This document shows positions 38,810 to 42,126 of a stretch of DNA of 64,000 nucleotides, one piece after another (the stretch's first letter is position 1; every line of letters starts with the position of its first letter). A model generated the notes under the pieces. That model did no database searches. It saw only the letters and a list, made by a program, of their open reading frames with translations, and had not been told where the DNA came from. This DNA comes from Planctomycetaceae bacterium. GTDB taxonomy: Bacteria; Planctomycetota; Planctomycetia; Pirellulales; Pirellulaceae. Location of the stretch: NCBI GenBank assembly GCA_024642205.1, contig JAHEBQ010000003.1:56409-120408 (forward strand), in the 5' to 3' direction. Made by a program: the position numbers and the translations under genes.

Positions 38810-39793
38810 ATGGTGTATCGAAAACAGGAACTTGAGCCGCTGACCCCAGACGCTTCGCGCGACCGGCTTCGCCTCTGCTCGGTTCCTGTTTTGCTTTCGG
38901 CAAGCATTTACGTGATGGTCGTTTGCTCTTTTGCCATGGGGCAGAAAATGCCGTCACAGCCGCCAAGTCAGGTGCCGCTCAACGGATTCAGCATTCTTGA
39001 ATCCCATGATGTTCCCTCGGAAAAATCCGCGCCGCCCCCTTCCCAGCCAGCTCCCTCCGCGGCCGACGCAGGTCGGGACGTGGACCAACTATTGACGCGA
39101 CTGGTGCTGGAAAACATCCCGCACGACTTCGAGGAAACCAAGGACTGGGGCGGACAAACGGAACGGTGGGATGGCCTCAAAATTCAACGCGACGGGCTGA
39201 AGATCGAAACCCGGCGTCGCAAGAAAATGGTCAATGATGGAACCTGGAACAAGTACTCTGCCCAGCTTCGTAATCCGAGCGAAGAGTTTACCGTTCAAAT
39301 AAAGAACATGCATGAAACCGACGACGAAAAACTCGCCTTTGATGTTCATTTTCTGGCTCACCTGAACCTGGAAGGGCGCCAGGCACAATGGGTGAAAGGA
39401 GTCCAGCTCTACAGCGTCGGCGTCGATGGCCACTCCAAAATCCGGTTGGCCGTTTCAATGGAACTGGAGGTCAGAATGGGTGGTACGAAATTCCCTCCGG
39501 ACCTCGTGTTCGTGCCACGAGCCACCCAAGCACAACTGGTCCTGGACGAATTTCGAATTGATCGAATCGGAAAAGTCGGGGGCGAGTTCGCCCAACAGGT
39601 AACCAAAGGCATTCGTGCCAAACTGGATGAGAAGATAGCGGAAAAGGAAGTCAAACTGCTGGAAAGAATCAATCGTCAACTCGCCGAGAAGCAGGATGAG
39701 TTTCGAATCTCCATCGCCGACGCGGTAAACTCAAAATGGACGAAATCAGCCAGACCATTCCTGCCAGAATCAATCCAGAGGTCGCTGGAATAA
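38810..39793 (+). CDS. Exported protein of unknown function
   Basis: The 327-residue product has a signal peptide (SVPVLLSASIYVMVVCSFAMG) and a Pro/Ser-rich linker (about 45-80). A long alpha/beta domain contains repeated basic motifs (DGLKIQRDGLKIETRRRKKMVND). The C-terminal 80 residues form a charged helix (KGIRAKLDEKIAEKEVKLLERINRQLAEKQDEF), probably a coiled coil. I do not recognise a family. It lies alone, about 200 bases upstream of the predicted selenoprotein gene, on the same strand. Confidence 0.75.
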   Translation: MVYRKQELEPLTPDASRDRLRLCSVPVLLSASIYVMVVCSFAMGQKMPSQPPSQVPLNGFSILESHDVPSEKSAPPPSQPAPSAADAGRDVDQLLTRLVLENIPHDFEETKDWGGQTERWDGLKIQRDGLKIETRRRKKMVNDGTWNKYSAQLRNPSEEFTVQIKNMHETDDEKLAFDVHFLAHLNLEGRQAQWVKGVQLYSVGVDGHSKIRLAVSMELEVRMGGTKFPPDLVFVPRATQAQLVLDEFRIDRIGKVGGEFAQQVTKGIRAKLDEKIAEKEVKLLERINRQLAEKQDEFRISIADAVNSKWTKSARPFLPESIQRSLE

Positions 39794-40003
39794 TTGGATC
39801 CGGATTCCGGCAACCCGGTACGTGAAACTGATTTCCCTCCCCGCTCCACCTGGCTGCAGACTCGGCCTGGTTGGACCAAGAACTCCGACCTGGTTGGTTC
39901 GATCACGCACGAACCAGGAAACTTTTGGCCAATCGGATGGCCTTCGCCCGAGTCATTTGCGTACAATGGATTCACTTTTTCCCCCTTTATCATTGAGGAA
40001 ACC

Positions 40004-40354
40004 ATGAAACCCTTTTCCCGCGCCGTCCTGTTCACATCGTGCTTCATTGGTTGGGGGGTTACGGCCGGCTGTCATTCGCCGACATCGCCACAGGCAACGG
40101 TGAAACCCGATGCTCACGCCGCAAGTTTGCAGACAGTTACCTTCTATGTCGATGGAATGGTCTGAGGGACCGCGTGAACGACGGCTGTAGAAACACAGCT
40201 CAAACAGCTACCGGGTGTAGTTGCCGCAACAACCGACATGGACCAGCAAACGGCAACCGTCCGTTTTGATCCGGCCAAATTCAAACCGTCCGATGCAATC
40301 GACTCCTTCACCGGACGATTCCAACTTTCGATATATGAAGGCGAAATCGAATAA
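40004..40354 (+). CDS. Predicted double-selenocysteine HMA-domain lipoprotein (reads through two in-frame UGA)
   Basis: Read from the ATG at 40004 (GAGGAA four bases upstream), the product has a lipoprotein signal with the lipid Cys in GVTAGCHS, then an HMA (MerP-like) domain. Two UGA codons at 40163-40165 (residue 54) and 40175-40177 (residue 58) interrupt the frame. They stand in the order GMV-U-GTA-U-TTAVETQLKQLPGVV, exactly where planctomycete HMA proteins have GM-x-C-x3-C. The frame stays open and well formed for 58 residues after the second UGA, through TTDMDQQTATVRFDPAKF to a TAA at 40352. The domain normally binds soft metal ions such as Cu or Hg. Two hairpins at suitable spacing follow (separate entries). 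A pseudogene with two independent stops is the main alternative, but both falling on the ligand codons is unlikely. Confidence 0.78.
40183..40200 (+). promoter_or_regulatory. Candidate SECIS hairpin for the first UGA
   Basis: GCTGT (40184-40188) pairs with ACAGC (40195-40199), extended by a G-U pair at 40183/40200. The loop is AGAAAC. The loop begins 23 bases after the first UGA and has G as its second base, as in bacterial SECIS models. Confidence 0.5.
40205..40223 (+). promoter_or_regulatory. Candidate SECIS hairpin for the second UGA
   Basis: CAGCTAC (40205-40211) pairs with GTAGTTG (40217-40223) with one G-U pair; the loop is CGGGT. The loop begins 34 bases after the second UGA, with G as its second base. 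It lies inside the coding sequence, as bacterial SECIS elements do. Confidence 0.5.
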
Positions 40355-40385: not shown

Positions 40386-40583
40386 TCATGGTTGGACTCG
40401 AAACGGGCTTATCTGAAACGCCTCGACGTTGTCCAACCAGATCGATTGTCGTCCATTCCCGATTCGCACAGGAGCCAACGTCGGTTCTTCAAACTGCAGC
40501 CTCGATTCTTCCAGGTTGGTCGAAACGAACTGGTAACGGCCAATCCGCACCAGGCAATTTACCAGCCCACTGGCTGCGTCCAC
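40386..40583 (-). CDS. Possible small gene overlapping the 3' end of the PHP gene
   Basis: A 65-residue frame with a GTG start overlaps the last 25 bases of the PHP-domain gene in a different frame. Its third codon positions are GC-biased like those of neighbouring genes, and the translation (for example PTLAPVRIGNGRQSIWLDNVEAF) looks like a real beta-rich protein end. It could be a small translationally coupled protein or the remnant of a former C-terminal domain. I do not recognise it. Confidence 0.33.
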   Translation of the reverse strand: MDAASGLVNCLVRIGRYQFVSTNLEESRLQFEEPTLAPVRIGNGRQSIWLDNVEAFQISPFRVQP

Positions 40584-41914
40584 GCCTGTTCTTTCTGATC
40601 CCGAAACGAAGGATTCGGATGTTCGCGGCTGGAAGTCACCACCGCACGAACGAACAGTTCATCCCCGGATAGTTGGTATTTCGGCTCAAGTGCATCGGAA
40701 GTCATGAAGACCTCTCCAACGTCATCAGAATACACGCGTGTTGCCCGGACTGGTTTGCCGGCAGCATCGAGTTGAACCGTTGAACCATGGTCGTAGCCCT
40801 TTCTGGTCCCGATGAACTGAGTCGTGAACGTGATCCCGGCCTGTCGTTTGATCTGCAGGGAAAACAGTCTGGTTTCATGATTAAAATGGACGCCTGACAG
40901 TTCCACGCCGCTGGAACTGTAAAACTCGCCCTGATTCATGGCCTCGATCAACGAAATCGGGGTTAGGTTTTTTGCACGAACCATCACCCAACCTCGACCC
41001 GAAGTGGCCCCTTGGTTTGGCGGGCCGTGATAATTGTGGCTGTCGTCGGTTGCCAACCCGAACATCGGATCCGCGTTCAACTCGCCAATTCGAATCGTAT
41101 TGGCGATGTCCCACATTTTTTCGACTCCGGGTCGTGTCGCGTCGCCAAGATGGTTGATGGACGGGTGCCCGTTATAGACTTCGAAAAATCGCTCATTGGT
41201 GACGGCTGCCAATTCCTCCGCGGTCACCGCCCAGCCGAAATTGGGGTGATTCAAATGAACCATAATCGGCTCACCATTCGCTTTCGCTTGCTGCTCAGCA
41301 GCTCGCAGGTTGTTATTGATCGCTTCGACTACCGTGGACCCACCCAAAGGTGAAATGACTTCCTGCAGGTTCATGGCATTCATGTGAACGGGAACACCCT
41401 GGGCGCGATCGCTGATTTCTTCAGCGGTGATCAATAGAAAGGTGTCAGTCGCTTCATATTTTCCTCGAAATTCATCCAGCCCTCGCAATCGAATCTGTTT
41501 GGCTGATTCAGCAGTCACGGACGGTTCCGTCTGTCTGGCAGGCGTCGGCTTTTCTCGCGACTCAACCCATTGGTCACCAAACTCGGCAATGTACTTCTCC
41601 AGAGCAGTTTTCCCGGCGCGTTGTTCGATCGCCGCCAAGTCCATCCATCGTTCGCCCTGGCTCAGTACATTGTGATCCGTGAGTGCCAAGAAATGATAAC
41701 CATGGTCGACATACCATTTGGTAATCATTTCCGGAAAGTCATTTCCGTCACTCCACAGCGAATGTGTATGCAGATTCCCTCGCCACCAACGAACGCCATG
41801 GTTGTCCTGCCCCCAGCCAATGTTGCCAACACTGCCGAGCGTCAACAAGACAAACAGGCAAAGTACGACTCGGAATTGGTTGGCATCTCCGGCCACCTTT
41901 TGGATTGAATTCAC
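40559..41914 (-). CDS. Exported PHP-domain metal-dependent phosphoesterase-like protein
   Basis: The 451-residue protein has a signal peptide (VVLCLFVLLTLGSVGNIGWG) followed by a PHP domain: WRGNLHTHSLWSDGND with the metal-binding H-x-H, HFLALTDHN, and a later MVHLNHPNFGW and ATDDSHNYHG. The C-terminal 100 residues are a beta domain ending in AWTQPVGW, a usual end for this family in planctomycetes. It probably hydrolyses a phosphoester outside the cytoplasm. The GTG at 41914 is preceded by GGGAGAG and begins just before the signal peptide; the frame is open further upstream. Confidence 0.82.
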   Translation of the reverse strand: MNSIQKVAGDANQFRVVLCLFVLLTLGSVGNIGWGQDNHGVRWWRGNLHTHSLWSDGNDFPEMITKWYVDHGYHFLALTDHNVLSQGERWMDLAAIEQRAGKTALEKYIAEFGDQWVESREKPTPARQTEPSVTAESAKQIRLRGLDEFRGKYEATDTFLLITAEEISDRAQGVPVHMNAMNLQEVISPLGGSTVVEAINNNLRAAEQQAKANGEPIMVHLNHPNFGWAVTAEELAAVTNERFFEVYNGHPSINHLGDATRPGVEKMWDIANTIRIGELNADPMFGLATDDSHNYHGPPNQGATSGRGWVMVRAKNLTPISLIEAMNQGEFYSSSGVELSGVHFNHETRLFSLQIKRQAGITFTTQFIGTRKGYDHGSTVQLDAAGKPVRATRVYSDDVGEVFMTSDALEPKYQLSGDELFVRAVVTSSREHPNPSFRDQKEQAWTQPVGW

Positions 41915-42126
41915 AACAACTCTCCCTGTTGAACATATTTGTGTCGCGCGGGCAATGGCGACACCGGGCGTCGACCAGATCACTTGAATTCTAGCACGTT
42001 TGACTGCCTGATTTAACGCGAAACAAAAGCCGGGGCGGAGCAATTTGCAACTGTCCGACTATGACGATAGACTCGCAACATCCGACTGGCAAGTTATCAA
42101 ACACAATTCGTTGGAGGTACTCTACC

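Follow-up and report, generated by a model that had tools for sequence, protein, structure and literature searches.

A short gene in DNA of a Planctomycetaceae bacterium appears to encode a lipoprotein whose single HMA domain carries selenocysteine (Sec) at both of its metal-ligand positions. The window analyzed here is a stretch of 64,000 nucleotides from contig JAHEBQ010000003.1 (assembly GCA_024642205.1), and the gene is one of a family in which two in-frame UGA codons are retained. The reading that best accommodates the evidence, to which we assign a probability of roughly 0.78, is a double-Sec HMA lipoprotein with one hairpin per UGA, most likely a soft-metal scavenger or chaperone. At each UGA, SelB would deliver Sec-tRNA under the guidance of a downstream hairpin: HP1 would serve the first UGA, and HP2 (loop CGGGU) the second. 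The secreted product, with one MerP/CopZ-like HMA domain and the ligand motif GM-V-U-x3-U, would be lipid-anchored outside the cytoplasm, where a soft metal, i.e., Cu(I), Hg(II) or Ag(I), would most likely be held between the two selenolates.

The reading frame begins with ATG at 40004 and, across two interrupting TGA codons, continues for 58 codons beyond the second TGA to a TAA at 40352-40354 (Table 1), exactly as the first-pass annotation, made from the letters of the window, had placed it. With both TGA codons read as Sec, the product opens with a predicted signal peptide whose last residues are TAGC; a short linker leads on to the HMA domain, whose ligand motif is GMV-U-GTA-U (U-x3-U). 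Compared with the HMA consensus GMxCxxC, the two ligands are in place, but they are Sec and one additional residue separates them. When C was entered in place of Sec, the read-through product matched Pfam HMA (PF00403) with an E value of 1.4e-10 and 41.8 bits, against a gathering cut-off of 24.8. The lipobox, read from the sequence rather than from a predictor, is TAGC at residues 20-23 with threonine at the -3 position, which is usually L, V or I; an [AGS]C pair at residue 17-23 is found in 20 of 21 proteins, the window's included, the exception being L035. The same annotation had described a good ribosome-binding site. The window does have a gagga element upstream of the ATG; nothing comparable is seen in its eight closest relatives (L012-L019), so the element adds little to the case for the gene.

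Table 1. Features of the predicted double-Sec HMA lipoprotein gene (window positions)
Feature	Position	Strand	Basis
Coding sequence, predicted double-Sec HMA lipoprotein, 116 aa	40004..40354	+	read-through translation, Pfam HMA, homologues, dN/dS
gagga, Shine-Dalgarno-like, 4 bases 5' of ATG	39995..39999	+	sequence
Predicted lipoprotein signal peptide ending TAGC (Cys23)	40004..40072	+	sequence
HMA domain, residues 46-98, predicted beta-alpha-beta-beta-alpha-beta	40139..40297	+	Pfam match, structure model, fold search
UGA1, codon of predicted Sec54, the first metal ligand	40163..40165	+	Cys in C-x3-C homologues
UGA2, codon of predicted Sec58, the second metal ligand	40175..40177	+	Cys in C-x3-C and U-x3-C homologues
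HP1, candidate SECIS hairpin of UGA1, with loop agaaac beginning 23 nt past UGA1	40183..40200	+	
HP2, candidate SECIS hairpin of UGA2, with 7 bp and loop cgggt beginning 34 nt past UGA2	40205..40223	+	

A search of 60 related genomes gave some match in 28 of them. Eleven loci besides the window's are U-x3-U with exactly two in-frame TGA codons, both at the ligand columns, and in the resulting alignment (A1) both UGA columns are invariant in all 12 U-x3-U sequences, window included; the 11 further homologues come from the same genus and family as the window. The same search gave five more two-UGA genes that are U-x2-U (L024, L027, L032, L036 and L037). These belong to the window's genus, carry a long C-terminal tail and have HP2 in common. 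In another family of the order, all 14 fetched lipoprotein genes have C-x3-C at both sites and align at both UGAs, providing cysteine homologues such as the first-pass annotation had proposed to look for. Its statement that planctomycete lipoproteins often use C-x3-C holds for these 14 genes of one family, but two more genes of that family (L073 and L080) are C-x2-C. The U-x3-C form is present in other families, and no C-x3-U gene occurs among the 80 genes classed from the matches listed. All homologues that were read have Cys or Sec at both positions; residues of another kind there had been named as evidence against a Sec reading.

A wider, TGA-biased survey gave at least 27 U-x3-U and at least five U-x2-U genes, counts that do not represent frequencies, as the 32 stretches surveyed were mostly picked for their TGA marks and few of the listed Cys rows (largely long proteins) were included. 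The 27 U-x3-U genes read span at least six families of the phylum (codes f1, f9, f10, f11, f27 and f76). Three loci (L105, L107 and L108) are second copies of L030, L044 and L024; they were omitted from the hairpin-register, synonymous-null, larger-set and tree analyses and were kept in the folding-energy z-score set. The C-x2-C genes L073 and L080 do not enter the counts for folding energy, hairpins, synonymous null or tree. The motif pattern gave nothing for L071, L075, L077 and L078, and the genomes of L071 and L075 were re-read as L114 and L121.

A contig search with the window protein alone found no relative; with the alignment it gave 12 loci, ten of them of the Sec family and one a Gammaproteobacteria Cys protein. 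Ten two-UGA loci are also present in named assemblies (three Mariniblastus, five Pirellulaceae, one Planctomycetaceae and one Planctomycetota). Eight of these ten lie in genomes assigned to the window's own genus, to which two further genomes are also assigned, and this kinship suggests that the window DNA comes from near Mariniblastus (Pirellulales).

Under a plain reading with translation table 11 the gene stops at 40165, as would be expected of a broken gene, a sequencing error or ordinary termination, the downstream frame then being untranslated. Such an explanation is very improbable. The same two UGAs occur in the 11 further homologues, and ten such loci recur in the named assemblies. 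The first-pass annotation had allowed that sequencing might show TGC or TGT in place of TGA; both TGAs recur in assemblies of other species, so an error in the window's assembly is no explanation. Over the 58 codons past the second TGA, dN/dS among nine homologues is 0.04-0.29 in 35 of 36 pairs, the one remaining pair being saturated, and by this measure of codon change the downstream part is under purifying selection. On the homologues with the same UGAs, the named assemblies and the purifying selection, a pseudogene or a sequencing error was rejected, and the complete Sec machinery described next argues further for translation of the frame. Comparison across the family indicates read-through of both UGAs, which occupy Cys-equivalent positions.

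Absence of Sec machinery was a further point that the first-pass annotation had set against its own proposal; the window's genome has all four components above cut-off, namely tRNA-Sec (66.7 bits, cut-off 47; ARAGORN anticodon tca), selA (575 bits, cut-off 268), selB (380 bits, cut-off 242) and selD (354 bits, cut-off 125). The selD match (L050, contig C148:34050-34976, genome G000) has one in-frame TGA of its own, and selenophosphate synthetase may itself be a selenoprotein here. In the 60-genome search, tRNA-Sec is above cut-off in 17 of 17 genomes with two-UGA loci and selB in 16 of 17 (the exception is G002); among all 60 genomes, tRNA-Sec is found in 40 and selB above cut-off in 42. Genome G032, which has a U-x3-C gene, gave no tRNA-Sec match at E 1e-9, though selB is present, and in G389, which has a U-x3-U gene, the sole tRNA-Sec match scores 46.5 bits, below cut-off. 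Matches of at least 60 bits to tRNA-Sec were found in 13 of 14 U-x3-U genomes, 10 of 10 one-Sec genomes and 6 of 15 C-x3-C genomes; in a further six Cys genomes the match, at 47.0-50.4 bits, is at or above cut-off but is read as doubtful. A strict equation of the Cys form with lack of Sec machinery fails on the six C-x3-C genomes with at least 60 bits. Reassignment of UGA was rejected, since TGA is an ordinary stop as well: it ends 12 of the 23 mechanical ORFs of at least 300 aa in the window, some of which are perhaps not genes. A tRNA scan of the window found none, and Rfam models at gathering scores had no match there either.

Conservation of the UGA columns, the Cys counterparts and the Sec machinery support the first-pass proposal that both ligands are selenocysteine. 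Sec is very probably inserted at both UGAs, and the existence of a conserved family of predicted double-Sec HMA lipoproteins is strongly supported by these genomic comparisons.

The two hairpins listed in Table 1 are candidate SECIS elements. The bSECIS model quoted in the accessible part of PMC13188914 has a loop of 3-9 nt with a G within its first two positions, a distance of 16-37 nt, and an MFE of -7.5 or lower. HP1 (23 nt) and HP2 (34 nt) of the window satisfy the geometry and the G rule of the model as given there, and their energies (-6.3 and -5.9 kcal/mol) miss its limit. Our own version of the full model is fitted by some hairpin at UGA1 in 16 of 27 and at UGA2 in 13 of 27 U-x3-U genes; at the same sites of C-x3-C genes the counts are 2 of 15 and 1 of 15. 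Folding energy of the whole region did not separate Sec from Cys genes, the mean z-score being -0.77 among the 25 rows with two UGAs, -0.10 among the 12 with one and -0.55 among the 14 Cys rows.

Conservation is highest for HP2, whose loop across genes reads CGGG[U/C/A] or, in a few, CGUGN. In a first set of genes at least six of its seven pairs form in fixed register in all 24 two-UGA genes, in 4 of the 10 with one UGA and in none of the 14 Cys genes. In the larger set the same threshold is reached by every two-UGA gene (27 of 27 U-x3-U and 5 of 5 U-x2-U), by 8 of 28 U-x3-C and 0 of 4 U-x2-C genes, and by no Cys gene (0 of 15 C-x3-C, 0 of 1 C-x2-C). Its covariation score is 0.559 versus 0.199 in shuffles, none of 500 reaching the observed value, and slid controls do not exceed 0.115. 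Among the 24 distinct sequences compared for covariation 98.8% of cells are paired and 32 cells have both sides changed; by weaker measures, both-side-changed pairs are matched by 84 of 500 shuffles and further pair types by 51 of 500. The HP2 stretch encodes L-P-G-V, and its valine codon is GTA in 26 of 26 PGV-bearing U-x3-U genes versus 1 of 12 such C-x3-C genes; of the 959 valine codons in long ORFs of the window, 85 are GTA. Against a null of synonymous codons (p <= 0.05), HP2 is significant in 21 of the 24 genes with two UGAs, 3 of the 10 with one and 1 of the 14 Cys genes, and HP1, whose loop begins 23-25 nt past UGA1 in 19 of 24 two-UGA genes, in 17 of 24, 4 of 10 and 2 of 14, respectively. 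The window's own p values are 0.057 (HP1) and 0.07 (HP2). Comparison among the genes shows that HP1 and HP2, both candidate SECIS elements, are under selection, and it is likely that the window gene has two SECIS elements in tandem.

The distances within the window bear on how hairpins and UGAs would be paired. From UGA2 to the HP1 loop is 11 nt and from UGA1 to the HP2 loop 46 nt, and since both fall outside the 16-37 nt range of the model, one hairpin per UGA is the simplest reading. In the U-x2-U genes L032 and L036, HP1 stands 16 nt from UGA2, just within range. It could instead be that HP2 is the sole true SECIS, acting for both UGAs, with HP1 a spacer or some other RNA feature. HP2 is the better conserved of the two and its loop obeys the G-then-G/U rule of the bSECIS model; moreover, the eight U-x3-C genes that retain HP2 have it 46 nt from their one UGA, and HP2 might also serve UGA1. 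We consider a single SECIS doubtful, as 46 nt exceeds the range of the model and HP1 beats the synonymous null in most two-UGA genes. In addition, on a weak tree (73 columns, 80 rows) the eight HP2-bearing U-x3-C genes are placed among the U-x3-U genes, as expected for a hairpin left over after recent loss of Sec; their HP2 fits such a loss of the second Sec. Four U-x3-C genes of other planctomycetes (L168, L169, L161 and L154) share a hairpin of another kind, whose loop resembles GCRGTCTGC and lies 23 nt past the UGA; this is perhaps a second SECIS class.

Returning to one hairpin per UGA, we lean towards the broader view that U-x3-U metal binders with tandem SECIS elements act outside the cytoplasm throughout Planctomycetota, and that the HP2 module is gained and lost with the second Sec, which would make the family a natural C-C/U-C/U-U switch on one fold. 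With C-x3-C, U-x3-C and U-x3-U forms on one scaffold, the effect of selenium on metal affinity and selectivity would be directly measurable, and one message with two UGAs that start 12 nt from each other, and with a candidate hairpin for either, offers a compact test of consecutive Sec insertions. Gene callers that halt at UGA would presumably overlook such genes. Other seleno-HMA loci were also noted. The window's genome (G000) has a second HMA lipoprotein (L044, contig C74, 1381-1779, minus strand) with one predicted Sec in GMTUGGC (U-x2-C). In genome G011, locus L035 (1426-2349, minus strand) joins a YceI-like domain to an HMA domain that has a single predicted Sec, in HMTUTGC. At L163 (G680) and L159 (G619), two U-x3-C HMA motifs lie in one frame free of TAA and TAG, possibly as tandem seleno-HMA proteins or as adjacent genes.

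The AlphaFold2 model, built from 11 sequences, has a mean pLDDT of 71.5, rising to 81-91 in the 10-residue blocks that cover 41 to 110; its elements run strand-helix-strand-strand-helix-strand. Its best solved matches are the CopA domain 1kqk, oxidized MerP 1osd (TM 0.89 on target length) and ATP7B domains; a profile search of PDB sequences gave the same kinds. The scanned neighbours in the window comprise isocitrate dehydrogenase, a HAD hydrolase, a cold-shock protein, a nuclease homologue, a glyoxalase-like protein, an S9 peptidase and a PEP-CTERM protein, together with two proteins lacking a Pfam match (38810-39793 and 40559-42043). The former of these lies directly upstream, and seven of the ten named loci (L081-L090) have a relative of it. 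No metal system was recognized among the scanned neighbours, which likewise include no mer gene or reductase, and PHROGs gave no match. At the other loci the neighbours were compared for recurrence, and those in common reflect solely synteny within the genus or within the Cys family; of the neighbours that recur in the latter, the four scanned as examples are RecA, ThiC, an MFS transporter and an alpha/beta hydrolase. Since no metal gene was recognized beside the gene, the case for a metal role is made by the fold. Together with the ligand positions and the signal peptide, it points to a soft-metal binder outside the cytoplasm, and the window protein probably does bind metal.

Redox catalysis is the usual explanation for Sec, which in the window protein is predicted to fill both ligand places of a metal-binding fold. 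Both Sec residues could nonetheless be inserted and form a selenol/diselenide couple, like those of thioredoxin-like selenoproteins, rather than a metal site. Most characterized prokaryotic selenoproteins act in redox reactions, according to reviews (PMC9312934, accessible part), and the lack of a recognized metal gene nearby would agree with this. Such a role is quite unlikely for a domain that is HMA, not thioredoxin-like, by both sequence and predicted fold, and that has no reductase among its scanned neighbours. If the protein is a metal binder, it might act chiefly as a mercury sink, with the two Sec binding Hg at high affinity, and not in copper handling. The nearest NCBIfam models include MerTP and MerP, oxidized MerP was second in the fold search, a Sec-containing MerT/CopZ model (NF045683) exists, and MerP is among the selenoproteins of the GOS survey, to judge from the accessible part of PMC2398784. 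Copper domains are equally close, however, and the scanned neighbours lack mer genes; a role chiefly in mercury binding is, in our estimate, unlikely. The preferred reading remains a soft-metal scavenger or chaperone.

Several known systems resemble the window protein in part. Sco-type CxxxC proteins have two thiols spaced by three and handle copper outside the cytoplasm; their ligand spacing is like that of the window protein, but they have a thioredoxin fold and not an HMA domain. CopZ chaperones, cytosolic and CxxC, share the HMA domain and a presumed soft-metal site, but the window protein scores 37.6 and 29.9 bits with their models NF033795 and NF047957 (cut-offs 91 and 85). MerP (TIGR02052; 1osd, 1afi), a Cys-x2-Cys protein located in mer operons, is a single HMA domain outside the cytoplasm, as the window protein is predicted to be; with its model the window protein reaches 36.7 bits, below the cut-off of 92.55, and it has a predicted Sec-x3-Sec site and no mer gene among its scanned neighbours. 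NF045683, a MerT/CopZ fusion-like heavy metal transport selenoprotein, also contains Sec and an HMA part, but it is a fusion of 235 positions of which the window protein matches the HMA part only (31.1 bits, cut-off 375). The best NCBIfam match is NF041115 (UxxU_metal_bind), which similarly has an HMA-like domain with two predicted Sec at ligand positions. Membership in that family was rejected, as the match scores 41.4 bits against a curated cut-off of 95 and the window's genome has no match above cut-off; by its name and a review table NF041115 is Sec-x2-Sec, whereas the window protein is predicted to be Sec-x3-Sec and to have a lipoprotein signal. The table in question, in the accessible part of PMC13188914, gives UxxU, with two Sec, as 'putative mercuric reductase'. 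UxxU metal-binding, MerT and P-type ATPase selenoproteins are listed in the accessible parts of PMC13188914 and PMC9312934, the former of which contains no mention there of HMA, planctomycetes, PF00403 or UxxxC. PMC4807772 treats Sec use in planctomycetes, its main text, as far as accessible, being without the term HMA, and PMC12013277 has none of the terms sought. No paper with UxxxU together with selenocysteine was found in the literature searched, most subscription papers lying outside it. The first-pass annotation was aware of no described U-x3-U HMA form, and within that literature its impression stands, alongside a catalogued U-x2-U HMA family. Double-Sec UxxU HMA selenoproteins are already on record, and what is new here is the variant in which the two predicted selenocysteines are spaced by three.
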